Origin: Eutreptiella sp. 'Long Island Sound 2002'
Taxonomy: Eukaryota > Euglenozoa > Euglenophyceae > Eutreptiales > Eutreptiaceae
Length of the DNA: 64,000 nucleotides
Reading direction: 5' to 3'
NCBI GenBank assembly: GCA_964036045.1
Contig: OZ038381.1
Span: 136,368,306 to 136,432,305 of the forward strand
Position 1 is the first letter of the stretch, and each line of letters starts with the position of its first letter. Made by a program: the position numbers and the translations under genes. A model generated the notes under the pieces. It ran no database searches. It saw nothing but the letters and a program-made list of their open reading frames with translations, and was not told the DNA's origin. Below, piece by piece: positions 6,462 through 46,292 of the stretch.

Positions 6462-7253
6462 AGTAAGAAAAAGTGCTTTTCCAATGCCTTGAGGCATACT
6501 CTAGTTGTATTAGAGATGCATTAAGCACTCTAGCATTTCTATCTTAGTATTGGCCCAACCAAAAGTGGTGATAACACATTTTGACCTATGGAACCAAACA
6601 CTAAATCAGGATATGAAGTGGACCCCTTAATCCCCTATCAATGTGAGGCTATTCATCTTTTCCAGAGTTGACTGAGAACTGACATATTCAGGGCAGAGCC
6701 TATGAATTTATCTATGTTTTCTCATGAATTCTTAGCTATCCTAGAGGTATGCACCCTAGGGGGCTGGGGCACCTCTTTTTGAGAGGTCCTGGGTTCGATT
6801 CCCGGTCAGCCTAGCTAAGTAGCAAGATCCCATGTGACATGGCAGTGACCTCATTGCCACATGCCCTGCCACCTCAGCGAATATGAGACCCAAAACAAAG
6901 AGTGCACATCCCCTGAGATGGCACTATGGAGATTGAGTGACTATGGTGCAGTTTTCCAACTCTTCTTCCAAAACATTTCAGCTATCTTTGTGAATATGCA
7001 ATCCGATGTGCCCTGAGTTGCAGTTTCTGTGAATTCTCTTGCATCTCTCACTGTTTACAGTGCAGCCCTTCATGCTTTGATCCTGATTCTCTTCTACTTG
7101 CTTATCTCTGGCCTGGGTTATCCTGGATTGGTTGTATTTCAGCAAATAAAACATTTTCATCATCAAAAACAAGCAGCAGGAAACCCTACACCAGCAGCAA
7201 GCAGCAGGAGAGGCACAACAAACACACAGTGTTGAAATCACTATAAAACGTTC
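6462..7253 (+). repeat. Family-2 LTR, plus orientation, 792 bp
   Basis: This matches the two minus-strand LTR copies (53905-54696, and 25563-26132 joined to 52945-53170) end to end, starting AGTAAGAAAAAG and ending near CTATAAAACGTTC. An AAGGGGGG tract immediately precedes it, so it looks like the 3' LTR of a plus-strand family-2 element whose body lay to the left, rather than a random fragment. It interrupts the minus-strand pol remnant of element L at 7254. No tRNA primer-binding site follows it, unlike the 5' LTR copies. Confidence 0.7.
6731..6819 (+). other. tRNA-Lys-like sequence inside the family-2 LTR
   Basis: An 8-bp inverted repeat, CTTAGCTA and TAGCTAAG, bounds the segment. Inside are ACCTC-TTTTTGA-GAGGT at 6771-6787, a perfect 5-bp stem with a 7-nt loop placing TTT at the anticodon position, and GGTTCGATTCC at 6792-6802, a canonical pol III B box and T-loop. 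The D-arm region is irregular, so this is tRNA-derived rather than a working tRNA. It is present in all three LTR copies. Confidence 0.6.
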
Positions 7254-8032
7254 TTCCCGAAAGAGGGCCAATGAAATTTGTAGCTGCAGTTCTTCCCCTT
7301 GCTGCAGTAAAGGTCCAGGACATGTTGCTCGTCGCTGGCGAACAACTCCACACTCAGGTCTTCTCTAGAGCAACCCAACTCCTTCAGACCTTGGTCTAGG
7401 ACTTCCCCCAATAGTTGATAGTCCTCAGTTTTGGAGGCCGCCATCATCCTCCTTCGATACCCTCAGGTAGCTCGAGGTGTGCTCAGACTGCTCCAGTGGC
7501 ACGGACTCTCTGCCCTCTCCGTGGTCCACGTAGAGGAGGTAGGGCGCTTGCAGCGTCAGGGATTGTATCTGCAAGTGCTGCACGAAGAAGGCAGTCTCCA
7601 ATACAAGTCAAAGGGTTCAGTGCCCATCACATAGAACCGATGGGCGATCGTTCGGGAGCCCATAGGTACCTCCACTTCACAGTCCCCGCAGCTGTACACC
7701 ACATGCCCATCCCCCATTCGTATAGCCGCGGTGGTCATGGTGTTCTTCAGGCTCCCAAAAGGTAAAAACATTTTTTGCCACTATTGACATGGTGGCCCCA
7801 GTGTCCAATACCCCCAGGTATTCACGTCCCCCTAGTCGAATACGTACCCAGAACACCAAGTCCAGGGCCCCACCGGAGCGTCCCCATCAGAACTCCGCGG
7901 GACAGGTCACCTCAAAACCCTTGTTCCGCAATTTGCGGGCCATCCTCATGAAACGGCTTCTCTTCTTAGCGTTGCCGTCATCACCGCCTTCATGCTCACG
8001 CTGGGCCCCTTGTTCTCGCTCGGCCTGCGTTT
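7254..8032 (-). pseudogene. Element L protease and start of an extra Pol module, frameshifted
   Basis: Reading right to left, the gag frame resumes after the F3 insertion, hits a TGA, then encodes a retropepsin: LGVLDTGATMSIVA with the catalytic DTGAT at 7791-7805. An A6 tract just after it causes a frameshift; the next frame gives the rest of the protease (..VMGTEPFDL). After further frame changes comes a module starting near 7350, DLSVELFASDEQHVL, which stops when the plus-strand LTR copy begins. VELFAS corresponds to TDVFAS in family 1, also located between protease and reverse transcriptase. The protein is broken in several places. The protease would cut the Gag-Pol polyprotein in the particle. 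Confidence 0.6.
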
Positions 8033-8036
8033 GTGA

Positions 8037-8732
8037 TGAAGCGGTTTCGGTGGGTCCTGCAACATTGATCTTGAGCTCTCCATTCTACTTTGGTTTGACG
8101 ACGGTCACTGGTCTTTGACACGAAGAAGACCTGCATTTTTGGAAGGCGTATTCACACAAAACCCCAACATTTTATGATCATCTCCAGCCCGGTGAATGGT
8201 GTTCCGCTGCAGTTTTTATAATAAATTTGATCAAAATCTGCAAGATTCCCTTGCCCTCGGTCATCCCAATCCGAACTGCAACCAAGAGAAGGATCGCCGG
8301 CTCTTTGGTGTGCTCACACTGTTCCACTGGCGCCGCTGTGCCCCACAGCCCCGCGCATGATTGCAAGAAGCAATCTACATTCTTTGCATCCTTAGAAAGG
8401 AAAAGAAATATGCATAGGTGCTGTCACAGCGACAGCGCAACATGAAGCAGAGGCGCAAATTCGAATTGCGCCGTCACGTGCAACAATATGCGGCAGTGTA
8501 AAATTGAATAATAAAATACGAAGTCTAAGTTAAAAAATCTCAGAACTTCACTGAATTCTACATTTCATTCTTCACATTCCACGTGGATTTGTGTGCGCGT
8601 GACCTTCAGCGCTGAGCTCAGCGCGACACTCTCTCAACCTGGGACCTGCTCCAGAAAGCAGATCTCTGACCATCTGTCGGTCTGCACTGGCGTAGACAGC
8701 AGTTGGGCCCAAAGGGTCCCCAAACTGCATCA
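8037..8732 (-). repeat. F3 3' LTR, 696 bp
   Basis: The downstream LTR on the minus strand. On the plus strand it begins TGAAGCGG and ends CTGCATCA, so it is bounded by TG..CA. It retains GAAGCAATCTAC, the segment matching the F3 primer site. Confidence 0.85.
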
Positions 8733-8746
8733 CCTCCCTCCCCAAG
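8733..8746 (-). promoter_or_regulatory. F3 polypurine tract
   Basis: On the minus strand CTTGGGGAGGGAGG lies directly against the start of the 3' LTR. This is the expected place for plus-strand DNA priming and fixes the element's orientation. Confidence 0.7.
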
Positions 8747-9450
8747 AGATCTGCATACCCAGCTCCAAAAGTGACTCTGCCCTGGCCACAAAAGTGACTC
8801 CCCATGGACCTTTCCTCCGGCGATCTAGCAGGCATTTCCTCCGGGGGCTGTAGCATCAATCTTCATTCTTGGGGGAGGCTGGTCTGGGCTCTGGAACCTA
8901 CAGTTGGGAGCTTGGCAATCAAGGGATGGAAAAATTAATGATAAAAAAACCACCATGACACTGACTGAGGCCATGCACAGGGCTGCAGCAAATATTTACA
9001 ATATTCACAACCAAGGGGCAAACAGGCACTGGGAAAAAGAGCGGGTGCACTTAGCTGCCCACATTACCAAACACGCCGCACGACAGAACTCAATCGCGCT
9101 GCTGGGACAGCGCCGTCAGCTGCTGCGGGCCCTTCTCCTGCATGACAAACATGTTGACACTATGAGCATTCCAGCGCTAGCACTGGCATGAGGGGATCGT
9201 CGCAACCAACCAGATTATCACGAGTACCATGCGTCGCTCCCTGGCGGTCCTTCCTCTGCGCAAATCTTGCGTTGACGATCGCTGCCTTCGCGCAGGCCTC
9301 ATCTGCACACTCTCGTCGCAGCGCCGCAGGTCGTGGCTGGCGTCAATGTAGCTCTGGACGTCGTGGCTGCTGCAGCACGTCCGCTGCTTAGCTGTCCACG
9401 TCGATGTTCCACACCGAAGAAATTTCAGACTTCTGGATGTTCACCAGCGT
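8747..9450 (-). other. F3 interior, no gene
   Basis: About 700 bp with only short frames. A minus frame at its left end joins the LTR but shows no domain. Probably RNA-packaging or spacer sequence of a non-autonomous element. Confidence 0.6.
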
Positions 9451-9462
9451 GTAGATTGCTTC
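9451..9462 (-). promoter_or_regulatory. F3 self-priming-type primer-binding site
   Basis: The 12 nt immediately after the 5' LTR on the minus strand are GAAGCAATCTAC. The LTR itself contains the exact reverse complement GTAGATTGCTTC (minus strand, at 9793-9804), followed by GTGCAA. No TGG-initial tRNA complement is present here. This matches the arrangement known from Tf1-type elements, in which the 5' end of the RNA folds back to prime minus-strand DNA. Confidence 0.7.
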
Positions 9463-10158
9463 TGAAGCGGTTTCAGTGGGTCCTGCAACATTGATCTTGA
9501 GCTCTCCATTCTACTTTGGTTTGACGGCGGTCACTGGTCTTTGACACGAAGAAAACCTGCATTTTTGGAAGGCGTATTTACACAAAACCCCAACATTTTA
9601 TGATCATCTCCAACCCGGTCAGTGGTTATCCGCTGCAGTTTTTATAATAAATTTGATCAAAATCTGCAAGATTCCCTTGCCCTCGGTCATCCCAATCCGA
9701 ACTGCAACCAAGAGAAGGATCGCCGGCTCTTTGGTGTGCTCACACTGTACCACTGGCGCCGCTGTGCCCCACAGCCCCGTGCATGATTGCACGAAGCAAT
9801 CTACATTCTTTGCATCCTTAGAAAGGAAACAAAATATGCATGGGTTCTGTCGCAGCGACAGCGCAACATGAAGCAGAGGCGCAAATTCGAATTGCGCCGT
9901 CACGTGCAACAATATGCGGCAGTGTAAAATTTAATAATAAAATACGAAGTCTAAGTTCAAAAACGTCAGAACTTCACTGAATTCTACATTTCATTCTTCA
10001 CATTCCACGTGGATTTGTGTGCGCGTGACCTTCAGCGCTGAGCTCAGCGCGACACGCGCTCAACCTGGGAGCTGCTCCAAAAAGCAGATCTCTGACCATC
10101 TGTCGGTCTGCACTGGCGTAGACAGCAGTTGGGCCCAAAGGGTCCCCAAACTGCATCA
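9463..10158 (-). repeat. F3 5' LTR, 696 bp
   Basis: The upstream LTR on the minus strand, TGATGCAG..CCGCTTCA. It is the same length as the other copy. The 12-nt primer complement at 9793-9804 marks the probable 5' end of the transcript (inference from Tf1-type elements). Confidence 0.85.
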
Positions 10159-12256
10159 GTGAGCGTGTGGTCGGACCAGACTGCCCCCCAGAGGGCTCGG
10201 AGTTCCCCCCTGGATTAGGGTTGGTGTTGCCTCCGTTCTTGTCCGGGTTCTTGTTGTCCTTGTCTGGCTGGCGGTTAGCGCCTCCTCCTCGTCCACCTTG
10301 ACTCTTGTCTTGCCCTTGTCCACGTCCTTTCGACTTGCCCTTGCCGGAGTCGTTGCCTTTGCCTTTGCCTCCACCTTTGCCAGAGCCTTTGCCAGGATCC
10401 TCACCCCTCAGCTTTGCCGACAGGCGCTGCTTGTGGTAGCACTCATCCTCAAAGTGCTTCCTCTTCCCACAGAAGGCACAGGTGATAGTACACCTGTAGT
10501 GATCCGGCATCTTCGCCTTGGCGCCGGTGTTGGTCTCCTGCTTCTTCCCTTTGACTACAAAGCAGTCTCGCTGCTCGCAGTCTGGGGCGTGCTGCAGGTG
10601 GCCATGCTCATCTCTGGCATCACACCAGAAGAGCTCCTTGACGTTTTTCATGATACAGGCGTGTTTGGGTGTAGTCCCCTGTCAAGGTTTGGATCCTTGG
10701 TACCCTTTGCCTTGGCTTCCAGAGCCTCCCCCTCCAGGACGGTAGTTGTTCAGGTGCTGGTCGCTTTCTTTCTCCAGGGCCAGCTCCAGGAGTAGTACAC
10801 ATAAATCCTCGTAGTGGAAGGCTCTAGCCTTGCGCTCTGCCGTTGAACGGCACTCGTCCCACAGCTCTTCGGGGAGCTTAGCCACCAACCAGAAAAGCAG
10901 GTCGTCGCTGCTGTAGGAACCGGGCGTCAATCGTCCAGCCCAGTGATCCAGGTCAGCCAATAGCTCAGAGACCCTGCCAGGTTTGGGGTTGTTGGGCACC
11001 ACGGCCAGGTTCTGGATCTCGGCCCTGATGGAGAGGTCGGTTTCATAGGTCTGGTACTGCCTCTCCAGGGCAACCAACACATCGGCAAAGGTGGCAAACT
11101 TAGTCACGATCTGCTTGACCTGCTTCTCCAGGTACTTGGTCTTGCAACACTGCAGGAGCAGATCGCACTTGACCCCTCCACTAGCGTGGGTTTGGCCGGT
11201 CGATCGAAAGAACCGGCCAAAATTCTCAGCAAACTGGCTGAGGTCCTTGCCTGTGAACTCAGGCAAGTTCACCACGATCTTGGAGGTGGCAATGGCCTTA
11301 GCCTCCTGAGACCTGCGTCCCTCAGGGCGCCTGGTCTTCCTCTTCTTCTTTTTTTCTTGCCCACTTGGGTTCTCAGGGTCCTCAGGGTTGTCGTCCTCCG
11401 AGGGCGAAGCAGAAGTCATCAACGGCGGCTCATCATCCGAGGGGTCTCCGCCTAGATCACTAGAGCCATAGGGCTCCACGTCAACCATTGCCCTCAGGGC
11501 TGTCAGCCCCAGCCGGTCCAGCTCGGCTCTCGTAGAATTCCCCACGTGGCTGTAGGGCGGCTGGGCCGTTCTCGGTACGAAAGGGCTTCTCGGTATCGCT
11601 GCAGGGGTCGGCATCGGTCGGCTCCTCAGGCTCCCCAGGGTGTTTGTCAACCCTGCCACCAGGTGGTTAGCCTGTACTCGATGGGGTGATATTCCCATCA
11701 TGGTAGGTGACGCTTGGGGCGGAATCAGGGGCTTTAGTTTAGCCCGAATCTCTTGAGTGAGATCGCCCACAAGTTCAGAGGTGGCTCCTCGGAGAGCCTC
11801 TTTTATCTCCGATCGCGTCAGGGACCTGTTGGAGGATCTCTCCGATCCTCTACCCCTGCTCCCGCATGACTCAGGTCCTCTCCTCAGCCCACTCAGGGTG
11901 GCATACCCAGGAACATCCACATAGGCTCCCGTAGCGGGTAGAGGATGGTGATAGTCAGCCGCATACCATCGCGGCGCAGAACTGGAGGCAACCGGCTCAC
12001 TGCTGGTAGTTGCCTCTGGAAACGCAGTCATAGGTGGGTTCACACCATAGGCAGGGTAGGTAGGCATACTAGTAAAGCCTGTGCCCTCAGCCATAGGCGG
12101 GTTGGTTATGGGTGTGGATGTTGCAGCGGCTGGGTCTGGAGTTGGGAGTGTGGTGGTTGTAGGAGAGGGTGATGTGTGGGGGCCCGAAGCGCTTGGTGCG
12201 CCCTCGAAGGTCGAATCAATCGTCGGGTCGTGCCCATGGTCTACTCCTTCGTCTGC
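10159..12256 (-). pseudogene. Element L Gag (family 2), main part
   Basis: The frame from 12256 leftward encodes a Pro/Thr/Ser-rich segment, then an Arg/Ser-rich stretch, then a Gag capsid-like domain (VNLPEFTGKDLSQFAENFGRFF.. to ..DLCVLLLELALEKE). A TGA at 10682-10684 interrupts it. The same frame then continues without another stop through the nucleocapsid, with a CCHC knuckle CAFCGKRKHFEDEC at 10439-10480 and a Gly/Lys/Gln-rich basic tail, until F3 interrupts it. The first 248 bp of this gag lie at 25220-25467 beyond the inserted element A. The open frame also runs 47 codons into element A's LTR, which is accidental. Role: Ty3-type particle protein, RNA binding through the knuckle. Whether the TGA is damage or readthrough is open; damage is likelier. 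Confidence 0.7.
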
Positions 12257-14611
12257 TGAAGCCGGTTCGGACCCCCGTGGCCATCTTGGGGTCACTTGGG
12301 GTGTGTATCTATGTGCCGGCAAGCCGCCATTGGCTGATATCCTACTCTCCCATCCACCCGACCTAACTTGATGTGATAGTGTGATAGGTTTGGCCATTCC
12401 GGCTATGAGCGGCCATATTCAGTACCGAGGCGCCGCCAGCTGAGATTTATATATCAGAATATCAGGAATCAACAGGGTTTTTTTATCATAATGTTTCCGT
12501 AATTTTTCCGCCTTTAGTTCTGATTGTCAATGTATCGGCGACTGTCAGTTGGCTCGCGATTTTGCGGTAACCGATTGGTCAACTGTTATTTACAAATATT
12601 TTGGCGGAAACCCCGATGAAGGGTCAGATTTCATCAGTAAAGGGTTCGTTGAGTCCGCAATTTTCATATTATACACTCGCAAAATTAATCCGATTTTTTC
12701 AGACTTTCAGAATCGGATTTTCGACTTCGACATCGCCGCACTCGATATGATGAATCTCGAGTGGTCATACATTTTTCCCCGATCACGAATCAACCTTCCT
12801 TTTGTCATCTCCCTGATTTTTCTTGGAGATATAGTCAAAACAAAAGTGATTCGTGAGACCGCTTTGACGAATCATATCTCCAGCTCACGGCGAGGAATAT
12901 CGATATCGAGAATTGGGTTGGAACTGCCTTGGTCTCAACTTAATTTAGGAAGCATCAAACGCCTTTGGTGTGTACACATGCCCGGTAAAGCAAGGGATAA
13001 TGGTCAAGAGGGTAGAAAGTGATATATAACTCTTGGACCGTGCAACCGAATATTTTATTGCGACTTTCGAGTGTACCGCATGAGTGTTGGGGTTGCATAG
13101 CAATTTTCCTTGGGTTCCTACGTATTTTTAACGTGAAGTTATGTCCATGGAGGGGCATGGCATACCATGGTTGGAGCCACTTTTGAGGGTATGTGTTATA
13201 TGCATGGTATGTGCTTCGATATGCTCACGCCCATGTTATATATCTCCGTTTGTAGGAAGATATATGGAGTCATATGTGGCAAGGGCTTCGTCCATGTCCC
13301 AATCGTGAACTCCATAGCGCTAGACTAAGTCTACCGCTCATATAGTGCAGGTCGGAGGGCTTACAGAGCGACCCACAAGCGCCAATATCAATTTTCCCAT
13401 TTTCATGGTGCATGTTGGGAGGAGATTCGAAGGTGTCCTCATGCGTCCATGTGGGGATCCAAGTGGGGGGATTAGCTGCAAATGGTCTCAAGCAATTGTG
13501 ATTTGAATCATATGTTGATACCATGGGTGAGCGAAGTTATATACTATTGTAATTATCTTGGATTTAGCATTATTTGCATGTTTTTGACCTCATTTTATGC
13601 TCATTTTTGTGTTTTATGTGCTCAACTGGTCGGCTAACAGTAAAGTGCCTAGAGATCCGTGAACTATGGTATGTTGCTTATATGTTGGCAAATGCTTCGG
13701 TGTTGTACCTCACCATATGCCGGATCACGTGGTCACTTTCGCTTGGCACACGAGGCCTCACAAAATTAGGTCTCAAACTCATGGGCTGACTTGTGAAGCA
13801 TGTCATGTACATAACCGGAGGGGTTTCGGAGCCAATGATGGGATATTCTTGGGCATGGACCTTTGGTCTATATCACCCTTGTATATTACTTTCCGGTTTG
13901 ACACATACATGGAGCATTTGAATATTTGCCGTATGCATTTTTGAGTATATAATTGATTTTGGGCATAATGGTGTGATTTGCCTGATATTGCCATGTTGTG
14001 AGGTCATCTTCATGGGGTAGTTCTCCAAGCCCAATCGACTCCAAGTCCAACCAAGGTTATGTCAGGGTAGGGCATGTTCCTGGGTGCCACTCTAGGCCAT
14101 GACACGCCACCTCCCCTATTGGGCTAGGATTTATAGGCTCGGGAGTGAACACATTTTTAGGGGTTTGTGTAGTGACGTTTGACACATGGCATTTAGCCAT
14201 CTTATTTGACTGGGTCCAGGGCATCATGTTGGGGAGTCAAGGGAAGGTCTTGAGTCCAGGGAATGAGGGGTCTATGGCTGTGATTGTGTAAGTTTCCATC
14301 TTTCCCCAACTTTGCTTTATTTGTGTTCATATGCCAATTTCAGGGCTTTCTTCTTTGGTGCAATTCTTGTACATGCCCGCCACCGTGAGACGACCGGTGT
14401 GCTGAACGGAAGCCCGCAGTGTGGATTGGGTTATTGCTGTATTTGTGGGATCTGGTTGCTATTCAGGGTTGAAGGAGGATAGTATTTTCTATATTGTTTG
14501 GATTTGGAACCCTGGATTTTGATAATTGCAAGCGTTGATCAGGAGCAGGTCAGCAGGGGTAACAGGCGGAAGGGGCACAGCAGGGGCCGGTCCTGGTAGG
14601 GACCTTCTTTA
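12257..14611 (+). repeat. Family-1 LTR, copy A 5' LTR
   Basis: About 2.36 kb, starting TGAAGCCGGTTCGG and ending CCTTCTTTA directly before the primer site. It is an A-type LTR that differs from the B and C type around 12650-12950. It contains a 157-codon open frame (12549-13022) that is also open in this element's other LTR but not in B or C. Confidence 0.85.
12447..12456 (+). promoter_or_regulatory. Candidate TATA box in family-1 LTR
   Basis: TTTATATATC lies about 190 bp into the LTR and is kept in the B copies (GATTTATATATC). C has TTATATAG at the same place. It is a plausible core promoter for the retrotransposon RNA; no start site can be fixed from sequence. Confidence 0.3.
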
Positions 14612-17600
14612 TGGTAGCAGAGGCGTACCTGCTGCCCCTACCTACCGCCGACCCGGGAACTTGGGCCCCTATGAGCCCTGCCCAAGTCCGCCCCGGGTGC
14701 GTATTGTTGACTCGGTGGAGACCACGCCGGAGATTGGAGCCAGAGAAGAGCCGGGACGCTCAGGAGCATGGCGAACTCCGGAAGTTGAAGCCCGAAGAGA
14801 AGTACGACGTTCGGGAAGAGGAGGACGTGACATGGAGGACCTGGTCTCCATGTGTGAGCGTCGCTGCCGAAAGGCATGCAACCTCCGCTCCGCCGCGGAG
14901 GACTCTGAGGAGACCTGGCATTCAGGCAGCAGTGGAGGACGGGCCCGGCGCTACCGGAAGCGCGGGTCACCCAAGCCCGCGGCAGGGGACGCCGGGGCTA
15001 TGGATACGGACCCCAGCCCGGTCAGGCTGTGGGACTCCGAGGGGCACTCCGAGGGCTATCGGACGGCCTATGAGCAACCTTCGGAGTCGGAGGAGATGGC
15101 CAGACCGCCCACAAGGGCGAACACGGCCCGAAAAACCCAGCCTGGAGCATGACGCCGACGCGTTGGAGAGGCCCGCCAGAGCCAGAACGGCGCCTGTGGC
15201 CCGGCACACGGAGCCAACGCGGGATAGCATGGGCGACACACCCATGGCGGAGGAGTCCGAGGCGCCGGGAACCGCGGGATGCGCCGGATCAGGTGGAAGG
15301 CACGCTGAGTGCCACTGCGAGCACGTGTCCTTCCTCATGGGCAAGTACCCAAAGATGGGGATGGAGGCCATCGTGCATCGCCTTGACTGCCTGGACAACG
15401 CGAAGGACGGCCTAGAGGAGGACGTCGCCGGGATCCTGGATGACCAGTCGGCAGCGGAGAGAGACATGGCGGAGCTGCGAGCGGAACGGGACCGGTACCG
15501 GGAGAATCTGGAGCTGGCCCTGCAGAAGCAGCAGCGAGTGGTGGACAGCCTCCTCCACTTAGTGGAGGACATGTCGGGACGCCTGAAAAGGCTAGAGGAG
15601 CGACAGCCCCTCACCTCCGGTCCGGAGCTCCCGGCAAAGCCAGCAGCGGCAGAGCTGGTGGAGCGGGTTAAGACCCTCCGGAGCGCCGTGGATAAACCCA
15701 TGGGCGGCCCGGCAGAGGCACCCTACGCGCCTCCGCGTGTTGACCCGGGTGCGCTGCCGTTTGTTCCCATGTTCAGCGAATCCACAATGCTCGGGGAACA
15801 CACGGCACCGGTTGGGTCCATGCGGGAAGGGCACGTAACCACGGACCCGAGGAGCCTGACGGTACAGATGTCCCATGCCGCCCAGGATCTACCGATCACT
15901 ACGACTGCCCATGCAGTTTATGCGGAAGAGGAGATCCAGAGCCAGACCATGCAGGGGCGAACCATGGGAAGCGCCGACGGACATGGTCGAGGTCATCCAG
16001 GCGGAAACCTGTGGGCGAAGGACCCCAATACGGGGATATGGACGGCCGATGGAGCAAGTCCTTCCCGCATTCCAAACCCCATGGGTTCAGGCCCAACTGG
16101 ACCGCACTCCATGGAGGAGAGGGATGTACGGGGAGTGTACTCACACCCCCCGGCCACAGGTGGTATCCGTCTCGGTGGAGTGGTGGCTGGGGACGTCGGA
16201 GACGCCATCAGGATTGACGACCTCAGGGGAATCAAAATCCCATACTACGATGGCAACCCCTCCAACCTGGATGACTTCATCCTGGATTGGGAGGACTTTG
16301 CCGAGGAGGTCGTCGGCGAGATGCGGGGAGCGCCGCGGGACAAGTGGGTATGCCGGACATTCCCACACCGGCTGGCGCAGGACCTGAAGGAGGAGCTGCG
16401 GGATCAGATCCGGGAAGGACTGATCCGTACGGAGCAGGCCTGCCTCCAGTGGTTGGAGGATGAGGAGCGGGTGGACGCTCCGAACCAGAAGCTGGAGGAC
16501 TTGTGGTCCATCCCGCTGCCGCTGGACCGCGGTGAGTTGCGGGTCCGGGAGTGGAACCGGTATCTGCGGAAGTACCGACGGAGCCTGAAGCTGGTTGAGG
16601 ATTGGAACGAGTCCAGCGAGATCCGTCACCTGCTGAAGGACGTCCTGCCCGGCCACTGGAAGAAGAAGGTGGAGGACGAGGAAAAGAAGCGAGCCAAGAA
16701 GCGGGTGGGGGTGAGGATCATGGCGGCGGAGGATACCCATGCGGGTATCATGGAGTTCTTCAGGAGGAACCTGGGCGAACCCAACCGGATGTTGGGACTG
16801 AAGAACGCCGTGTACGTGGAGGTATTTGGAGACAACATGGGGCAAAGGTTGCTGCGCCTCAACAACGCGGAGTGGAGGCGTGGAGAGCCACTGAGGATGC
16901 AGGTCATCTTCGCCCGCATGAGCCTGGACGAGATCGTGAAGTACATCACGGTGGAGTTGAAGCTCAATGCGAAGAACGAGGCCCACGTGCAGGATCGACA
17001 TGGTAATGGACAACGAGGCCACCGAGAGGACCGCCATCATCGGGAGATCCAGGAGGACACGGCCAACTCCGTGGAGGATGGTAGTGGAAGTGGCCAAGAC
17101 CACTGGACCGGGTCCCGGGAGGATCACGAGGAGGCCCATTTCTTCGCGTTTGTGGCGCACAACGTGAGGGACCATGGGCAGGATCGGTCCAAATGAAACC
17201 GGGTGGGACCCAAGAAGGGCAAAGAGCCAAGGAGGATCGGGAACCCACCGCTCTCGTTCCGGGAGTACAGGTCTCAGCACGACGGGTGCTGGGTCTGTTA
17301 TGGCAAGGGAAACAACCATGCACATGACCACCGTCAGTGCAAGGTGTATGAGGCGGATAAGAAGGCCTACTTCGCTGCCGACCCCGAGCAGAGGCCCAAG
17401 GAGCAGCAGATTGCCGATTGGAAGGCGAAGGGCGGAGACGGGGGAAAAGGCCAAGGCAAAGGCCAAGGGAAAGGCGGAGGAAGAGGCTATGGTGGTGGAC
17501 CTGGCCAAGACCGACGAGTGAGGTCGATCGAGGAGGTTGCTGAGGACATGTTGAGGACGTTGGAGGAACTCAAAGCCCAGCAACGTGGTGGACAAAGTCC

Positions 17601-17643
17601 TGGCGGATCGCAGCCGGAAGGGGCTGCAGGAAGTCAAGTCTAG
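14611..17643 (+). pseudogene. Family-1 Gag, copy A, one nonsense codon
   Basis: The frame matches the intact 1,036-residue Gag of copy C. In A the upstream ATG inside the LTR is TTG, and the first ATG in frame (14611) overlaps the primer site. A TGA at 17194-17196 replaces a Trp codon shortly before the zinc knuckle. The frame resumes and includes CWVCYGKGNNHAHDHRQC, an expanded C-x2-C-x8-H-x4-C knuckle, then a Gly/Lys-rich tail, ending at TAG 17641-17643. The capsid-like region contains IKIPYYDGNPSNLDDFILDW. Upstream is a long acidic coiled-coil region. Confidence 0.8.
14612..14623 (+). promoter_or_regulatory. tRNA-iMet primer-binding site, copy A
   Basis: TGGTAGCAGAGG directly follows the LTR and is complementary to the 12-nt 3' end of typical eukaryotic initiator-Met tRNA (..CCTCTGCTACCA). 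The same site occurs at 28483 (B), 44185 (C) and in family 2. Confidence 0.75.
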
Positions 17644-17684
17644 AGGAGCCCCCACGGGAGTGGGACCTCGGAGGTCTCTCCTCC
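17641..17684 (+). promoter_or_regulatory. Gag-Pol UAG junction with downstream stem-loop potential
   Basis: UAG ends Gag; the same frame then stays open for 27 codons into Pol. Seven nt after the stop, CCCAC-GGGA-GTGGG (17651-17664) forms a 5-bp hairpin. GACCT-CGG-AGGTC follows (shares one G), and GGAG at 17645 can pair with CTCC near 17678. The same sequence follows the UAG in B and C. This geometry resembles known retroviral UAG-readthrough sites. Confidence 0.55.
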
Positions 17685-20600
17685 GAAAATCAGTGGAATC
17701 CCTGAGGAATCAGAGGCACATCGGGTGCCGAAGAAGGCTCCGGAAGAGCCAAAACCACTGAGTTTCGCCACTCCCAACCCCTGGAGCGCCCTGCCAAGGG
17801 AAGTACATGTGGGTACGGGACATGGCAAGAAGGAAGGAGCGACCACGGAGAGCCCCGTGGACGGGCAGGACCAGCCCAAGATCTATACCATCCGTGACCA
17901 TACCCTTGAAGTCCTGATGCACCCGGACGTGCTAGAGTTGCATGCCGTGAGAGTTGTCCATACACCTCATGGTGACGAGCGGCAGTTGCACTTGAAAGTG
18001 CGAGTACGGTGCGGACGGGAGGAGAAGGTGGTGGATGTGTTGGTGGATACGGTGCCCAGGTGAGCCTGGTCCGGAGAGGGTTGTTCAAGGAGGAACTCCT
18101 GCAGCCCAGCCGGAGACCGGTCCGCCTGAAGGTCGCCAACGGAGAGATTATGGGTGGCGGCACCCATGAGGCCACCATCAGTATGGAATTCTGGGAGCAT
18201 GAGCGCTTGAACTGCCCTGATTTGGCGAAGAGAAGCACTCTATCCGGGAACTTCTATGTGGCCGACATTACTGATTGGGATATGATCATGGGGTATGACT
18301 TCATGGTGGCAAACGCCATTGGAGCCCTTCCCCATCGTGCAATGCTGGTCTGGGAGGATGATGATGCCTTACATGGCTGTCCACGGACTATGCATGCGGA
18401 TCATCCCAATGGAATGCTGAGGAAGAGGATCGGATCGTCCGAGCGGTGCAAGCTGTGGGTGCCAAGTCCAGAGGAGACTGAGGAGTTCAGCTCACGGAGT
18501 ATGGAATGGCGCCGCAGGTGTATGATAGGATGATCCAGACGCTGGGAGCCGAAGCGCCCGAGACGGACGTCTTTGCTTCCCGGGATGCCCCACTTTTGCG
18601 GAAGTGTAGGAGGCATTGGCATCGAGGAGACTCAGCCTGGCATAGGCATTGGGGTTTGAAGGAGTGGGGGCCCATGTATTGGCATGGCTCCCTGGACAAT
18701 ACCAGACGTACGGTGGAGAAGATCGTCGCGGATAGGGCAAAGGGGGTCCTGGTCATAACCGGCATAGGATCCACCCCATGTCCGCTGGAGGGTCTCAAGT
18801 CGACGCTGGACTCCATCACCCTGAACGAGATGTCATTCGGGCCAGAGGAGGAGTTGTTCATCGACGCCAAGGGGGTATCAATGCCCTCCCCGGGTCAAGC
18901 TTGGGGTACCAAGGCTTTCCTGGTGGATGGGGCGCACGCCCAGCCCACTGGTGATGAAGCATTCATCCGCAGGGTTGAGGCGGTGCCCATGCGGGTCATG
19001 TTCGAGCCCAAGGAGGGGACGGATCAGCCAATTGATGGCATTGACATCCTGTCCCTCTCCGAGATCGACGACGTCGTCAACTACATGCGGATGGGGATGC
19101 ATGATTGTGTGGCAGCCAAGAAGAGGCGGGCCATGGTCACATCTCCGCATTGGTGGGATGACAAGATGTTGGTCACCGGCAAGTAGGAGAAGGATGACTT
19201 CGTGACGAGGGTCATGGATAACATCGCGGACCAATATGATGGTCTGGTTGGGTCGGAGCCGCCGACGTGGGATTTTCCAAGAATGGGGGCCGAGAGCGAC
19301 AAGAACCAGCCCGATGCCGCAAATTTTCGAAGATTATCGGTGGGAAGCGCGCCCCACGACGATGAAGCCGGCATATCGGACGAGGAGAAGTCGGACTCAG
19401 ACCCAGAAGAGGCCTATACCGCAGTGCGGTCCGTTGTGTCAATACCGAAGCAAGCGGCTGAAGAGGCCCAGGAGAACCCGAAGGTCGCCGAGCTGAAGGA
19501 GAGGCTGATCAATGCCTTTCCGCGGCTATTCAGTGGCGTCGCCAACAAGAACCCTCCAGATCGTGGGAGGTTTGGTACAGCGAAGATCAAGCTGAAGCCG
19601 AACCCCAAGATCTATCGTCATCGGGAGTACCAACTTCAGGGCGATCGGGCCGAGGCCATGAAGAAGTTGTTGGCCGAGTTCATTGCGCAGGGATGGATCG
19701 AACCCTCCGACAGTGAGTGGGCCAGCCCAGCCTTTATCGTGCCCAAGAAGGAGAAGGGCCAGTGGAGGTTGGTGGTGGATTACAGGGGTTTGAACGAGCA
19801 AACCGAGCACGACTGCAGTGGAAAGTGGTGCCTATGGGCGCCAAGAATGGCAACGGCGCTTTCCAGCGCATGATGGAGGACCTACTCGGTCCGGTCCGGG
19901 TCTGTGCCGACCCCTTTGTGGATGACATCATCATCGGGTCTGGCACGGAGAACATGACGGAGGACGAGCTCATCAAAGCGCATGAGAAGGATCTGCGCCG
20001 AGTGCTCAGTGAGCGGGACAAGCACAACATGGTGTGCAAGCCCACCAAAGCCTCACTCTTCGTGAAGGAGGTGGAGTTCGCGGGTCACGTGGTTGGTCAC
20101 GGGCAACGCCGTCCCACGCCTGGGAAGCTGCTACTATTCGGGCTATGTCCGGATGTATGCAGAACGCTCGGGGCCGCTGCACAAGATGCTGCAGGTGGGG
20201 AAGTTCGATGGCCGGAAGGGGAGCAAGAAGAAGCTTGCCTGGACCCCTGAGGCAAAAGATGCGTTCAGCCGCCTGAAGGAGCGACTCCTGGGGCAGCTGG
20301 GGCTGTTCCTGGTTGACCTGGACAAGGGATTCGTGCTACGAACGGACGCCTCGGACTATGCTGTAGGGGCAGTCCTCGAGCAGATCCGGGACCACGGGTC
20401 ACACGTACCCGTGGCGTTTTGGAGCCGGATCCTGGCCGAGGGCAAACGCCGAACCTGGACCGCGAGGGAGAAGGAGACGTACGCCATTGTTTGTGCGCTC
20501 AGGAAGTGGTCTGGCCACATCGGATTGCAACCGGTGGTGGTTTGTACGGACCATCAGTCCTTGCAGAGCTGGCATAAGGAGCACATCGACACCCCCTCGG

Positions 20601-22490
20601 GACCAGCGGCAAGAAGGGCCCGATGGCATGAGACGTTCGCCAAGTTCGACCTCAGCGTCCTATACGTCCCGGGGAAGGACAACACTGTGGCAGATTGCCT
20701 CAGTCGATGGGTCTACCCCGCGGGCAAGGCTTGGATGGACATATCCAGCCATGGGGACGCTGAGGAGACCGAGGAGGCCAAGCGCATCATCGAGATGGAG
20801 AGAGCCATGGAGCAAGAGGGGGTCAAGTGCTTTGTGGTGATGGCAAACCGTACGGACCTGGCCAAGTTCCGGGGCGCCCGCGTCCAAGCTATTCGAGAGG
20901 AAACCCTCGAGCAATGGATGGTGGCCCCTGTAGAGCTAGTCAGGTCGGTGCTCACAGAGGACTGGTCGGATGACTATGCGGCCTCCGAGAATTGGAGCAG
21001 GTACTGGAATGCCGTGAGCGCCCCGTCGGACGAGGAATGGCCCGAGGGCTTGACCGAGGATGGGGATAAAATGTTCCTCAAGGACAAGCTGTTGGTCCCT
21101 GAGAACCGAGTGGAGGAGCTCATTGACCACTGGCATAACGCCCAGATCATGCATCCTGGTCGGGACAAGATGCAGCAGGACCTGGACTGGCGGTTCAAGT
21201 TCCCTCCGGGGTACTACGCCATCCTGGACAAGTACTGCAGCGACTGTGCCGTGTGTTGGGCCACAAAGAGCCCCAACCACTCCACATCGGGCAACCCGGT
21301 GTATACGGCTATACCGGAGGCCCCTATGCGGTCCGTGGCCATGGATGTATTCGCCATGCCTGAGGTCACCGTGGAAGGAGAGACCTACGACTGTGTCATC
21401 CTGGCGGTGGATAGGCACAGCGGGTATATCGTGGCGGTCCCTGGCAAGAAGTCCAAGAAGAAGGACAAGAAGAACAAGCATGGAGTGGGGCTGCAGGCCA
21501 AGACCGTCGCTCATGCCATGACAAGGCATTGGCTGACGATTTTTGATGTCCCAGCTGTCATCTGCAGCGATCGGGGCAGTCAATTTGTGGGGACGGGGTT
21601 CAAGACGATGTGCAAGCACATGGGCATTCGGCACGCCAAGACCGTGGCGTACCACAGCCGGTCGAATGGCCGGGCTGAGGTGGCCGGGCGGCAGATGTTC
21701 GAAAAGTTCCGCCAGCTGCACATTGACGAACCGGGCCGGAACTGGTATAATTCGCTGTGGAGAGTACTCCAAGCGTATCACGACCTTCCGGGACCCACGG
21801 GGCTGTCGCCCCATCGTATCCTGTTCCTACGGGATCGAGTGTCACGCACTCTCCCGTGGTTGAACCATGGCAAAGTGGCCCGGGATGCGAATGCTATGAT
21901 GGCTGAGGCGGACGACACGGCGGCCAAGGTGTGCAAAGCACTTCAGGACGAGCATGAGAAGAGGGGCAAGTACTTCAAGCAGGGAAAAGTCCAGAAGTAT
22001 GCTCTCCAAGACACCGTGTGGGTGGAGCGGCACCACAAGGATGTCCTGTCCAGGCATCGGCAGGCGTCCTGGTATGTGCTGGGGGTAATCGTGCAGAAGG
22101 TCGGACAGGATGTGTATGCGGTTCGTGTGGGGGATAACAAGATCCTGGACCGCGACCACACCCAGCTTCGTCCCCGAGCACCAGACCCCAGCGGACGTCC
22201 CGTCACCTTCGAGTTCACGGCCGGCGATCTAGACTCGGATGACGAGGGTGAGGACGACGACTTCACCGCCGAGAGGATCCTGGCGGACAAGCCGGACCCG
22301 GGGACGCCCTGGGGGTAGGCTTTATAAAGTCCGTTGGAAGGGATTCGCCGCATCCAGGGACTCGTGGGAGCCTCCGAGCAGTTTCGTGCCGAGGTACACC
22401 ACGGTCTGGATGGACTATCTGAAGAAAAAGAACATTTCTTTGGATGTCAAGGACGTGTTGGTCCATTTGGTGGCTGCAGTAGCACCGTAA
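17644..22490 (+). pseudogene. Family-1 Pol, copy A, multiply broken
   Basis: Order as in copy C: protease, TDVFAS module, reverse transcriptase, RNase H, integrase, chromodomain. Damage visible: a base lost inside the protease DTGAQ motif near 18051; frame changes near 18370; a TAG for Tyr near 19184; about 150 bp deleted near 19814, removing the first catalytic Asp region of reverse transcriptase; about 70 bp deleted near 20130; and a frameshift near 22310 just before the chromodomain. RNase H, integrase (HHCC zinc region, DD35E) and most of the tail are open from 20093 to 22318. The remaining chromodomain reads to the stop at 22490. About 390 bp of untranslated DNA follow before the 3' LTR. 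Confidence 0.8.
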
Positions 22491-22882
22491 TGGATCCCCC
22501 TTGGCATCTTTGTTTGTTTCTGTGCTTGGGAGACGGGTGAGGGCGTTCATCCGGGGATTTTTGGGCCTTGATTGGCCATATACCCCCTTCACTCGATCTC
22601 CAGATATATATTTCATCGTGGTATACGTATTTAGATCGATGGATGACGTTGCTCTATCTTTGATCCCCTTGGTCCATGTTGTAGATCAAGAGGAGACCGG
22701 ATATGGCGTAGGGCACCGATTATGAGTGTCCTCACCCCTCCCTTGGGGCGTGGGGGACGCCTACGACGTGTGTGGGGCCTCCATGTGTCCTTGGGACATG
22801 GGGGGGGGGTTGGAGCCCATTTGGGTCCCCCCGTCCTCTCTTCAATGACTTCCGAGCGGTAACAACGCTCTGAGAAGGCGGG

Positions 22883-25219
22883 TAAAGCCGGTTCGGACCC
22901 CCGTGGCCATCCTGGGGTCACTTGGGGTGTGTATCTATGTGCCGGCAAGCCGCCATTGGCTGATATCATACTCTCCCATCCACCTGACCTAACCCGATGT
23001 GATAGTGTGATAGGTTTGGCCATTCCGGCTATGAGCGGCCATATTCAGTACCGAGGCGCCGCCAGCTGAGATTTATATATCAGAATATCAGGAATCAACA
23101 GGGTTTTTTTATCATAATGTTTCCGTAATTTTCTCGCCTTTCGTTCTGATTGTCAATGTATCGGCGACTGTCAGTTGGCTCGCGATTTCGCGGTAACCGA
23201 TTGGTTAATTGTTATTTACAGATATTTTGGCGGAAACCCCGATGAAGGGTCAGATTTCATCAGTAAAGGGTTCGTTGAGTCCGCAATTTTCATATTATAC
23301 ACTCGCAAAATTAATCCGATTTTTTCAGACTTTCAGAATCGGATTTTCGACTTCGACATCGCCGCACTCGATATGATGAATCTCGAGTGGTCATACATTT
23401 TTCCCCGATCACGAATCAACCTTCCTTTTGTCATCTCCCTGATTTTTCTTGGAGATATAGTCAAAACAAAAGTGATTCGTGAGACCACTTTGAAGAATCA
23501 TATCTCCGGCTCACGGCGAGGAATATCGATATCGAGAATTGGGTTGGAACTGCCTTGGTCTCAACTTAATTTAGGAAGCATCAAACGCCTTTGGTGTGTA
23601 CACATGCCCGGTATAGCAAGGGATAATGGTCAAGAGGGTAGAAAGTGATATATAACTCTTGGACCGTGCAACCGAATATTTTATTGCGACTTTTGAGTGT
23701 AGCGCATGAGTTTTCGGGGTTGCATAGCAACTTTCCTTGGGTTCCTACGTATTTTTAACGTGAAGTTATGTCCATGGAGGGGCATGGCATACCATGGTGG
23801 GAGCCACTTTTGAGGGTATGTGTTATATGCATGGTATGTGCTTCGATATGTTCACGCCCATGCTATATATCTCCGTTTGTAGGAGGATATATGGAGTCAT
23901 ATGTGGCAAGGGCTTCGCCCATGTCCCAATGGTGAACTCCATAGCGCTAGACTAAGTCTACCGCTCATATAGTGCATGTGGGAGGGCTTACAGAGCGACC
24001 CACAAGCGCCAATATCAATTTTCCCATTTTCATGGTGCATGTTGGGAGGAGATTCGAAGGTGTCCTCATGCGTTCATGTGGGGATCCAAGTGGGGGGATT
24101 GTTTGCAAATGGTCTCAAGCAATTGTGTATTGAACCATGAGCGGATACCATGGGTGAGTGAAGTTATATACTATTGTAATTATCTTGAATTTGGCATTAT
24201 TTGCATGTTTTTGACCTCATTTTATGCTCATTTTTGCGCTTTATGTGCTCAACTGGTCGGCTAACAGTAAAGTGCCTAGAGATCCGTGAACTATGGTATG
24301 TTGCTTATATGTTGGCATATGCTTCGGTGTTGTACCTCACCATATGCCGGATCACGTGGTCACTTTGGAATGGCACACGAGGCCTCACAAAATTAGGTCT
24401 CAAACTCATGGGCTGACTTGTGAAGCATGTCATGTACATAACCGGAAGGGCTCCGGAGCCAATGATGGGATATTCTTGGGCATGGACCTTTGGTTTATAT
24501 CACCCTTGTATATTAGTTTCCGGTTCGACACATGCATGGAGCATTTGCATTTTTGCCGTATGCATTTTTGAGTATATAATTGATTTTGGGCATAATGGTG
24601 TGATTTGCCTGATTTTGCCATGTTGTGAGGTCATCTTCATGGGGTAGTTCTCCAAGCCCAATCGACTCCAAGTCCAACCAAGGTTATATCAGGGTAGGGC
24701 ATGGTCCTGAGTGCTACTCTAGGCCATGACACGCCACCTCCCCTATTGGGCTAGGGATTAGAGGCTTGGGAGTGAACACATTTTTGGGGTTTGTGTAGTG
24801 ACTTTTGACACATGGCATTTAGCCATCTTATTTGACTGGGTCCAGGGCACCATGTTGGGGAGTCAAGGGAAGGTCTTGAGTCCAGGGAATGAGGGGTCTA
24901 TGGCTGTGATTGTGTAAGTTTCCATCTTTCCCCAACTTTGCTTTATTTGTGTTCATATGCCAATTTCAGGGCTTTCTTCTTTGGTGCAATTCTTGTACAT
25001 GCCCGCCACCGTGGGACGACCGGTGTGCTGAACGGAAGCCCACAGTGTGGATCGGGTTATTGCTGTATTTGTGGGATCTGGTTGCTATTCAGGTTTGAAG
25101 GAGGATAGTATTTTGTATATTTTTTGGATTTGGAACCCTGGATTTTGATAAATGCAAGCGTTGATCGGGAGCAAGTCAGCAGGGGTAACAGGCGGAAGGG
25201 GCACAGCAGGGGCCGGTCC
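22883..25219 (+). repeat. Family-1 LTR, copy A 3' LTR (end clipped)
   Basis: It starts TAAAGCCGG (TG mutated to TA) after a purine tract GAGAAGGCGGG and matches the 5' LTR, but ends at GGCCGGTCCT, about 17 bp short. It then joins L gag sequence directly. It contains the same 157-codon open frame (23175-23648). Confidence 0.8.
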
Positions 25220-25467
25220 TCCTTTCTCCAGCATCCTTTTCTCTCTCTCTCTCTTTCTCTTCATAGGATTGGTGTCCACCTCCTCGACTGAGAGAGCCCG
25301 GAAGGCCGACTGAAGTCCTTCCAGCGAATCATCCGCCACGTCCACTGGCCCATGTAAGGGCACCGAAGGTACAGCACTACGTCCAGGTCCAAGTTCACCA
25401 GGTGCTGGCATTACTGGTGCCTCAGGCGCCGTCCTCACGTCGGTGTCCTCCTTCTTTGTGTCCGTAT
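25220..25467 (-). pseudogene. Element L Gag N-terminus (split by element A)
   Basis: The minus frame gives RTAPEAPVMPAPGELGPG.. and ..SVEEVDTNPMKRKRERE, matching the start of Gag in copy R (53810). The start codon is ACG here where R has ATG, so translation would be impaired even without the insertion. The rest of this gag lies at 12256 and leftward. Confidence 0.65.
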
Positions 25468-25549
25468 TCGCCCTTCTTGCTTATATATGACAGATCTCGG
25501 CGCACTGGGTGTACGGCACGGGGTTGCTGCCGGTACGCAGAGACTGTCT

Positions 25550-25562
25550 GCCTCTGCTACCA
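25550..25562 (-). promoter_or_regulatory. tRNA-iMet primer-binding site, element L
   Basis: On the minus strand TGGTAGCAGAGGC lies right after the family-2 LTR. It is the same primer choice as family 1. Confidence 0.7.
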
Positions 25563-31400: not shown

Positions 31401-31504
31401 CTGAGGACATGTTGAGGACGTTGGAGGAACTCAAAGCCCAGCAACGTGGTGGACAAAGTCCTGGCGGATTGCAGCCGGAAGGGGCTGCGGGAAGCCAAGT
31501 CTAG
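28397..31504 (+). pseudogene. Family-1 Gag, copy B, frameshifted
   Basis: It starts with ATG at 28397, inside the LTR and before the primer site, as in copy C. A short insertion near 28870 (GCTACACTATGG versus GCTATGG) shifts frame. Further shifts occur near 29870-29960 and near 31300. Between them the coiled-coil region, capsid-like domain (IPYYDGNPSNLDDF) and the knuckle CWVCYGKGNNHAHDHRQC are readable. It ends at the conserved TAG 31502-31504. Confidence 0.8.
28483..28494 (+). promoter_or_regulatory. tRNA-iMet primer-binding site, copy B
   Basis: TGGTAGCAGAGG abuts the LTR end, as in copies A and C. Confidence 0.75.
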
Positions 31505-44383: not shown

Positions 44384-44942
44384 TGACGCAGATTCGGTAT
44401 GCCTCCCTGCTGGCCACCAAGTGGCTTATTGAGAGGCTCGGCAACAGATCGTCGGCAGGCCGGCAACATACCGGCAGGCCGAGCCGCAGGCGCCGCAAAA
44501 TGGGACGCGTAATCCCCGTGCCAGCGTCAGATCACAGAAAAAAGGGCACATGTCGCCTGTTGACAGTGCAGTGTAAATACCTTGTGTGTTTTTATGCATT
44601 TTATTATTACATTCTGTCCTCCCTGCATTTTGCAGCTCAGAATGTGTCAGGGTGGACAAGGCCCGTACAAGAATTTGTGCAACACTGAGCCAAATCTGCT
44701 TCAAAAGGTCTTCATGCTCCGTGTCTTATGCTGATGGAGGACAGTATTGGAGGGTTTTCACGAAACTGGACTGGTTCACGAGTTTTGGAGAAAATGCAAA
44801 AGGAGTATTTGGTCAAAAATCAACATCGCAACGGCGAAGGGTTTTCGATCAGTTGACTGAAAGCAGCGGAGCTCGGGCAAAAGGCAACAAGGCCGGCGGT
44901 GTCAAGGAGGGTGTCTAGCGTGACCCCCAGCAACCCGCTTCA
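44384..44942 (+). repeat. F4 5' LTR, 559 bp
   Basis: Bounded by TG and CA. Contains GTACAAGAATTT at 44665-44676 followed by GTGCAA, the complement of the primer site next to this LTR. Confidence 0.9.
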
Positions 44943-44954
44943 AAATTCTTGTAC
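44943..44954 (+). promoter_or_regulatory. F4 self-priming-type primer-binding site
   Basis: AAATTCTTGTAC directly follows the 5' LTR and is the exact reverse complement of GTACAAGAATTT at 44665-44676 in the LTR. No tRNA-type TGG site is present at this position. If the RNA begins at about 44665, its first 12 nt would anneal here. Confidence 0.7.
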
Positions 44955-45722
44955 TCCGACGTACGCCCGTCCCAGCCCTTACGTGGAAACATGCCGAGAC
45001 GATCAGTGTCAGCGTGCGGCCGAGAAGAGACACGCAGCGGTTTGCGGCAGATGGCGGCAGCGCCAGCGAAGGTCCCAGACAGGCGCCACGGTCGACGACG
45101 AGCACGTGCCAGCGTTGGCAGTGCTGTAGCAACGCGTGCGAAGTCCCAGCAAGTTCGGCAGTGCACCAGCGTCAAGTACGACGCAGCACGATCGATCTCA
45201 AGTCCCAGCGAGGTGTACCAATTTGTTGGAGCCGCGCCAAAGCACAGAGGAAGGACTGGACGTGGGATTCCAGTTGAAGGCCACGGAGCGTGCGGCCGAT
45301 GTCAAGACCTGGGGTCTACGCTTCGATACGACGGGGTACGATGGCCCAAGACACAGAGGAAGGACCAGTGTATCAGGGCACTGGTTGAGACTCGCACGGA
45401 GAATGGACTGGGTAATAGGATCTGTTAAGGTTTTTTTTAGCATCTGTGCGTGTATGGCCCAGATGGGCGCATATATAGCTGGGCCGATTTTAGTCGCGCC
45501 CTGGCTGCCAGGAGATGGCTTGAGTGACACCTTGGCTCTGCACAGTGCCGCTGGGTTTCTGTACCCGTGCTTGGTGCATACTGGGCAAGGTGGTTAGCCG
45601 TGTACCTTCGGGTCATGGGGTATCCAGTCGAATTTTTTTTTTCCATACAGGTCGAGCGTAAGCAGTGTGCCTCGCCTCTTCCTGGAGCTATGTGTGTTTG
45701 CATAGCGCCACACAAAGCTTTT
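44955..45722 (+). other. F4 interior, no gene
   Basis: G/C-rich sequence with several open frames, the longest about 159 codons, Arg-rich and without domain signatures. The motif CACAGAGGAAGGAC occurs twice (near 45244 and 45352). Probably non-coding packaging or spacer sequence. Confidence 0.55.
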
Positions 45723-45733
45723 AAGGAGGGGGG
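45723..45733 (+). promoter_or_regulatory. F4 polypurine tract
   Basis: AAGGAGGGGGG lies directly against the 3' LTR start and fixes the plus orientation. Confidence 0.75.
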
Positions 45734-46292
45734 TGACGCAGATTCGGTATGCCTCCCTGCTGGCCACCAAGTGGCTTATTGAGAGGCTCGGCAACAGATC
45801 GTCGGCAGGCCGGCAACATACCGGCAGGCCGAGCCGCAGGCGCCGCAAAATGGGACGCGTAATCCCCGTGCCAGCGTCAGATCACAGAAAAAAGGGCACA
45901 TGTCGCCTGTTGACAGTGCAGTGTAAATACCTTGTGTGTTTTTATGCATTTTATTACTACATTCTGTCCTCCCTGCATTTTGCAGCTCAGAATGTGTCAG
46001 GGTGGACAAGGCCCGTACAAGAATTTGTGCAACACTGAGCCAAATCTGCTTCAAAAGGTCTTCATGCTCCGTGTCTTATGCTGATGGAGGACAGTATTGG
46101 AGGGTTTTCACGAAACTGGACTGGTTCACGAGTTTTGGAGAAAATGCAAAAGGAGTATTTGGTCAAAAATCAACATCGCAACGGCGAAGGGTTTTCGATC
46201 AGTTGACTGAAAGCAGCGGAGCTCGGGCAAAAGGCAACAAGGCCGGCGGTGTCAAGGAGGGTGTCTAGCGTGACCCCCAGCAACCCGCTTCA
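45734..46292 (+). repeat. F4 3' LTR, 559 bp
   Basis: Nearly identical to 44384-44942 and followed by the ATAA target duplication. Confidence 0.9.

Follow-up and report, generated by a model that had tools for sequence, protein, structure and literature searches.

Self-priming of reverse transcription is already known for long terminal repeat (LTR) retroelements (PMC6317226, PMC10085805, PMC4600332; statements on published systems refer here and below to excerpts of the cited papers). In the Tf1/sushi and Tcn1 chromoviruses (Tf1, Tf2, Tj1), the primer-binding site (PBS) that follows the 5' LTR is complementary over about 11 nucleotides (nt) to an LTR segment at the RNA 5' end and shows no signature of a transfer RNA (tRNA) (PMC7175516, PMC4600332, PMC10085805); the primer of Tf1 is 11 nt long (PMC7175516). 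Self-priming has also been predicted for the TAR lineage of Ty1/copia (Houba, Osr-1; PMC6317226). Here we describe F3, a non-coding LTR element in a 64,000-nt stretch of the genome of Eutreptiella sp. 'Long Island Sound 2002' (assembly GCA_964036045.1, contig OZ038381.1, forward-strand positions 136,368,306 to 136,432,305), referred to below as the window. From its sequence, F3 is probably (probability about 0.85) a miniature, helper-dependent LTR retrotransposon whose reverse transcription is self-primed in the manner of Tf1. A second element of the window, F4, and a third family represented by locus L061 share with F3, and with Tf1, a PBS that is complementary to their own LTR and lacks a tRNA signature. 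Unlike Tf1/sushi and the coding TAR lineage, F3 and F4 have no coding region, and the likeness to Tf1 lies in the proposed mechanism, whereas the Tf1/sushi clade itself is defined by reverse transcriptase/integrase phylogeny with a chromodomain.

F3 possesses paired TG...CA LTRs, a PBS, a polypurine tract and a target duplication, as LTR retrotransposons do (Table 1). Its two LTRs are 96.4% identical, and the bounds given in the preliminary description, 8037-10158, coincide with the ends of this pair. The host site is the gag/protease frame of another Ty3-like element; when the flanks are joined with a single GTGA, one open gag/protease frame spans the insertion point, and stops occur beyond it downstream. 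Comparison of F3 and F4 with gag-pol proteins of the window and with fetched ones gave only weak short matches, the best at E 0.01 among the first 30 matches of each list. On the minus strand, the 12 nt that directly follow the 5' LTR are GAAGCAATCTAC, and their exact complement, GTAGATTGCTTC, lies inside that LTR and is followed by GTGCAA, as had been reported before; the complement is actually 13 nt long. A third copy of the 12-mer, in the 3' LTR, is followed by TTGCAA. With at most one mismatch allowed, the window holds three matches to the 12-mer against 0.22 expected, a number reached in none of 100 shuffles. Within the 730-nt interior, the 12-mers at offsets 0 and 1 are the only ones whose exact complement is present in the 5' LTR (chance per 12-mer 4.1e-5), and 1 of 20,000 Markov-shuffled LTRs reached a match of 12 nt. 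Two of the large chromovirus LTRs of the window were examined, and neither is followed by a self-complement of 9 nt. The sequence GTAGATTGC at 54149 (minus strand), considered as a related primer, was taken as a chance match because it is missing from the paralogous repeat at 25530-26160.

Table 1. Coordinates of F3 and F4 features in the window.
Feature	Position	Strand	Basis
F3 element, non-coding LTR retrotransposon, 2,122 nt	8037..10158	-	LTR pair and weak gag-pol comparison
F3 5' LTR, 696 nt, TGATGCAG...CCGCTTCA	9463..10158	-	LTR comparison
F3 3' LTR, with 12-mer copy at 8367-8378	8037..8732	-	LTR comparison
F3 interior, 730 nt, no gag/pol seen	8733..9462	-	
F3 polypurine tract GGGGAGGGAGG, abutting 3' LTR	8733..8743	-	
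F3 putative self-primer 12-mer GTAGATTGCTTC, LTR nt 355-366	9793..9804	-	Pattern and folding
F3 PBS GAAGCAATCTAC, immediately after 5' LTR	9451..9462	-	Complement to LTR
GTGCAA after F3 12-mer, opening hairpin GTGCA-ATCA-TGCAC	9787..9792	-	Folding
F3 target duplication GTGA, left copy	8033..8036	.	Flank joining
F3 target duplication GTGA, right copy	10159..10162	.	Flank joining
F4 element	44384..46292	+	LTRs 44384-44942 and 45734-46292, target duplication ATAA, paralogous empty sites
F4 putative self-primer 12-mer GTACAAGAATTT, then GTGCAA	44665..44676	+	Exact complement, folding
F4 PBS AAATTCTTGTAC	44943..44954	+	Exact complement
F4 29 nt between putative trans-splice acceptor TTTTGCAG and 12-mer	44636..44664	+	Leader joined exactly here in L088-L090

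F4 follows the plan of F3 with a different 12-mer. Offset 0 alone has a complement in its LTR (chance 3.3e-5), and none of 20,000 shuffled LTRs matched it; each of the four paralogous sequences displayed has ATAA, the target duplication of F4, only once. When both were searched against the window, F3 and F4 had no similarity beyond their ends, and the earlier statement that their 12-mers differ while each is complementary to its own LTR stood up in exact matches and shuffle tests. L061, a single tandem array at C3:27.613-27.617 Mb with LTRs of about 931 nt and interiors of 266 nt, was fetched through a pattern of termini alone, regardless of any match. Its LTR ends are the same as those of F3 and F4, its purine tract is alike, and the geometry is shared by all three; outside the termini and short matches at chance level the three families have no sequence in common. 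The L061 PBS, AAATAAATCTG, has an 11-nt complement in a stretch of its LTR that starts near nt 377 (numbered from one base inside the LTR), a length reached by 2 of 20,000 shuffles. L061 is the sole fetched locus outside F3 and F4 in which an LTR pair was found. Seven others (L046, L047, L050, L051, L053, L059 and L060) were weakly tested and gave no pair with a finder that also missed L061, so that a pair is possible there; L052, L054, L057, L058 and L062 have no upstream direct repeat. The proposal that GTGCAA belongs to a general conserved 5' fold is not supported, as the GTGCA-TGCAC hairpin is predicted in F3 but not in F4 and L061 has GTAAGC at this place. Upstream of the 12-mer, all three families carry CAA[AG]G and 3 nt before the G that opens it (GCAAAGAATG, ACAAGGCCCG and GCAAAGCTCG in F3, F4 and L061, respectively).

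The preliminary description had proposed that the LTR 12-mer and the PBS be compared across genomic copies, with drift of the former over a conserved PBS counting against a functional pair. The assembly comprises 2.28 Gb. In a genome search with the F3 LTR, 40 of 77 candidates were scored as matches and were 95-97% identical apart from F3 itself. The purine tract followed by the LTR start (GGRGGRRGGTGAYGCAG) was found at 278 places, its reversed control at 61. Thirty loci were taken from the first 100 of these 278 places, and further loci were chosen from both lists blind to the 12-mers. The covariation set comprised 19 F3 and 21 F4 loci, of which L082 gave no row. Excluded were repeats of one place (L013, L027, L028, L042, L043, L084), loci with a single LTR or no PBS (L014, L065, L073, L080, L015, L016, L019, L081, L083), and the diverged L045 together with L017.

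In F3, 15 of 21 rows of PBS and 5' LTR were fully Watson-Crick, three had one G-U pair (L009, L010 and the second L074 unit), and three had one mismatch, located in the PBS in L008 and in one LTR in L070 and the first L074 unit. Among 24 F4 rows L064 was spurious (no 5' LTR); of the usable 23, nine were fully paired, six were unpaired at PBS nt 12 alone, five had a G-U pair (all in overlapping loci of one array), and two (L021, L024) had inner damage in the 5' LTR. The 12-nt pair of the preliminary description shrinks to an 11-bp duplex in many F4 copies, with PBS nt 12 free, and in L061, comparable to the 11-nt primer of Tf1 (PMC7175516). One matched double change was found per family, each present in both LTRs: in the F3 copy L012 the last nt of the LTR 12-mer is changed from C to T and the first PBS nt from G to A, while in the F4 copy L038, which also has a G-U pair at nt 12, LTR nt 6 is changed from A to G and PBS nt 7 from T to C. 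Two F3 units, L009 and the second one of L074, are changed in the LTR and not in the PBS, which is in part the refuting pattern named beforehand, yet a G-U pair remains in them. Pairs 2-12 were never broken by a change common to both LTRs. Several changes confined to one LTR do break pairs; these therefore arose after insertion. L045 is related to F3 at 82-84% and has a truncated 5' LTR; between its PBS and its 3'-LTR 12-mer there are one mismatch and one G-U pair. A function of the family-specific matching, as previously claimed, is supported by the double changes and by a third, unrelated family with its own 11-mer.

Site variation gave a mixed picture. The F3 PBS varied at 3/252 sites against 151/3528 in its flanks, and the F3 LTR 12-mer was more variable than the PBS (10/468, seven of the ten changes falling on the last nt), which again is partly the refuting pattern named beforehand. 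In F4 the values were 7/359 for the LTR 12-mer (flanks 236/5027) and 13/276 for the PBS (flanks 325/3846). When R, U5 and PBS alone were folded, the predicted pairing of 12-mer and PBS was 0.87-1.00 in all 24 copies folded; for the F4 copy of the window the predicted values were 0.96, 0.96, 0.01 and 0.96 with 12, 60, 120 and 200 nt of interior, respectively.

Chimeric copies of F4 point to the pairing in action. One of them, at C1:2581972-2585068, is bounded by the 4-bp duplication CTAC and reads, in sense order, LTR, PBS, inverted U3, inverted interior, an 811-nt foreign stretch, interior end and LTR; in it, U3 plus the 12-mer is joined to inverted U5 exactly past the 12-mer. This junction occurs at four loci of the genome against none in a reversed control. 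In L088, L089 and L090 the 29 nt CTCAG...GGCCC lie directly before the 12-mer, and ahead of them stand 20, 25 and 11 nt, respectively, of ACTTTCTGAGTGTCTATTTTTTTTCG, which is the spliced leader (SL) of Euglena gracilis (PMC6242988); taken by itself, this leader points to Euglena as the probable host. The order in L088 is LTR, PBS, inverted 29 nt, 20 nt of inverted leader, PBS and interior. L090 additionally carries the full 26 nt of ACTTTCTGAGTGTCTATTTTTTTTCG on CTCAG, with R and U5 continuing normally, as in an uncleaved R-U5 copy. Because the leader is joined exactly between TTTTGCAG and CTCAG in L088-L090, these DNA copies suggest that F4 RNA was trans-spliced there. The hexamer GCAGCT is retained in 31 of 36 matches across 17 F4 loci, some of them overlapping. 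The three leader-bearing loci differ in leader length and surroundings, L089 being closest to another LTR subfamily, and may stem from separate events. In F4 the 12-mer apparently follows the spliced leader and the 29 nt and, unlike in Tf1, does not lie at the extreme end of the messenger RNA (mRNA). On the minus strand of L089, near position 1225, a second leader-like sequence with two differences is followed by sequence with GTGCAATTCTTGTAC, perhaps a further family. The LTR element Cer1 of C. elegans likewise resides in a host with SL trans-splicing; in contrast to F4, no SL1 leader is spliced onto its 8-kb full-length mRNA at the SL1 site, and a possible PBS of Cer1 matches tRNA-Pro (PMC3315495).

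Taken as Tf1-like self-priming, these features would fit the following course. The 12 nt near the RNA 5' end, at the start of R, would fold back on the PBS just past U5; RNase H would cut after nt 12, and the new 3' end would prime minus-strand DNA into U5. Plus-strand DNA would then copy the primer and rewrite the PBS from LTR sequence, which would keep the pair matched while families drift apart. A Ty3-type helper would provide the proteins and recognise the common LTR ends, and the 5' end of F3 RNA would be at or just upstream of GTAGATTG. In F4, the 12-mer of an SL-bearing trans-spliced RNA would pair with the PBS, and the cut past the 12-mer would remove the leader from the template. We tentatively propose, at close to even odds, that the primer is the leader-bearing 5' fragment of the element's own trans-spliced mRNA: one cut would make the primer and strip the leader, so that first-strand transfer is not blocked, and self-priming would be an adaptation to trans-splicing that frees the elements from the tRNA of the helper.

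Several results weigh against self-priming in general or against parts of it. A PBS change in the F3 copy L008 breaks a pair, and the LTR 12-mer of F3 is hardly less variable than its flanks (160/6543). When 200 nt of interior were added to the folded leader, predicted pairing fell below 0.4 in 9 of 24 copies, and in L061 it fell from 0.94 with 12 nt to 0.07 with 200 nt. F3 equivalents of the F4 junctions had no match in the genome, nor had one guessed acceptor, and an intact helper was not met among the fetched loci. A long primer is, moreover, not the sole possible source of the F4 chimeras, since plus-strand DNA may have jumped to the 5' end of an mRNA. Plus-strand strong-stop DNA, mis-annealed through its PBS to the 12-mer of a free mRNA (or to the 3' R), would yield the same junctions as an uncut long primer, L088 then switching back to a second PBS; this origin is a real possibility, if somewhat short of an even chance, and nothing here separates it from the long primer. 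Pairing of the 12-mer with the PBS during replication is needed in both, and only the long-primer route would prove priming directly.

Whether the pairing is merely structural, a circularisation, dimer or packaging signal beside some other primer, was considered in light of the folding: pairing is predicted in the leader and does not require priming. The pair lies, however, exactly at the LTR edge, where the 3' end of a primer sets the LTR end, and the chimeras are joined there, which makes this explanation improbable. Priming by a tRNA or tRNA half, with the LTR match being secondary, would follow the rule of most plant LTR elements, Ty1/copia elements of plants being known to use half-tRNA primers (PMC6317226). 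The TGG expected of a tRNA 3' end is absent from the start of all three PBSs (no screen of the genome's tRNA genes was made), each matches its own LTR over 11-13 nt, and in the F4 chimeras the sequence at the PBS comes from an mRNA 5' end, so that a tRNA primer is quite improbable. ARAGORN detected no tRNA in the window. A chance complement might be suspected since many places had been looked at in the first reading and a single pair is short; with probabilities of about 4e-5 (F3) and 3e-5 (F4), 2 of 20,000 shuffles for L061, and L061 having been picked regardless of a match, it is close to negligible.

Three loci were considered as helper candidates. In L048 and L049 a decayed pol precedes a TGAYGCAG LTR, and no 5' LTR was found for either. 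L083 is no helper but an F4 copy to which a foreign RNase H (Pfam) and, by eye, integrase-like sequence are fused. In L083, the F4 interior and 3' LTR are fused at the GTAC of the PBS edge to the Ty3 RNase H/integrase-like part, perhaps by a template switch between elements.

In architecture, F3 and F4 resemble terminal-repeat retrotransposons in miniature (TRIMs), which are non-coding, helper-dependent and built as LTR-PBS-polypurine tract-LTR; their length of about 1.9-2.1 kb exceeds the typical 0.5-1 kb and stays below the 4-kb bound given in PMC4558846. ta-TRIM has mostly 4-bp duplications, as F3 and F4 do, but its PBS pairs with tRNA-Leu (PMC4558846). Bivalve TRIMs (biv-TRIM) are described without a clear PBS, self-priming being mentioned for other elements (PMC6934838). 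Retrozymes are likewise non-coding, with 4-bp duplications and terminal boxes in common with Ty3 helpers, but their PBS matches tRNA-Met (PMC4918200). The hammerhead ribozyme that retrozymes have in each LTR was not found in F3 or F4. Thirty elements, some of them tandem units, had both LTRs; of these, 19 had an exact 4-bp target duplication and four a 3-of-4 match, while an exact 5-bp duplication, the usual length in the Tf1/sushi clade, was found in none. Tandem arrays of LTR-interior-LTR-interior were seen in F3, F4 and the third family (L040-L044, L061, L063, L074, L079), as is reported for the TRIM Cassandra, PbTRIM being a further TRIM. For the array at C1:194.50 Mb (L040-L044), pattern matches suggest about five units, with matches again at 194.57 Mb.

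The window further contains nested Ty3 elements at 12257-25220, 26133-35712 and 34989-48473 with LTRs of about 2.3 kb, one stretch having a chromodomain. The large Ty3 LTR is followed by TGGTAGGGACC, a PBS of tRNA type judged by its TGG; tRNA-primed and self-primed elements may therefore coexist. A SINE-like (short interspersed element) repeat of about 560-790 nt occurs at 6462-7254, 25562-26124 and 53904-54696 and carries in its middle GGTTCGATTCC, which we take to be a tRNA-like B box. An open frame at 59251-59946 (plus strand) encodes a membrane protein of the Got1/Sft2 family (Pfam PF04178) and is apparently a host gene. Rfam at its gathering threshold gave no match in the window. An 18-mer scan of genome contigs yielded three bacterial matches against an estimated chance expectation of about seven. 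Pattern scans of viral contigs gave 0, 0 and 3 matches, the three resembling F3 only over the 17-18 nt of the pattern and 13-nt chance matches. The pol of the window had no match in viral contigs and 635 relatives in the protein collection.

The elements for which self-priming was established or proposed so far are coding ones, from fungi, vertebrates and some plants; here it would occur in gene-less elements. Among the best literature matches, drawn mostly from outside subscription journals and consulted as excerpts, there was neither a self-primed non-autonomous element nor a leader-bearing primer; what appears new is the gene-less form, the presence of three parallel putative primers within a single genome, and the leader. 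Three different putative primers in the gene-less elements of one genome amount to a natural covariation experiment. If the leader evidence from F4 holds, it bears on how first-strand transfer proceeds when an mRNA starts with a leader that is absent from the DNA of the element.
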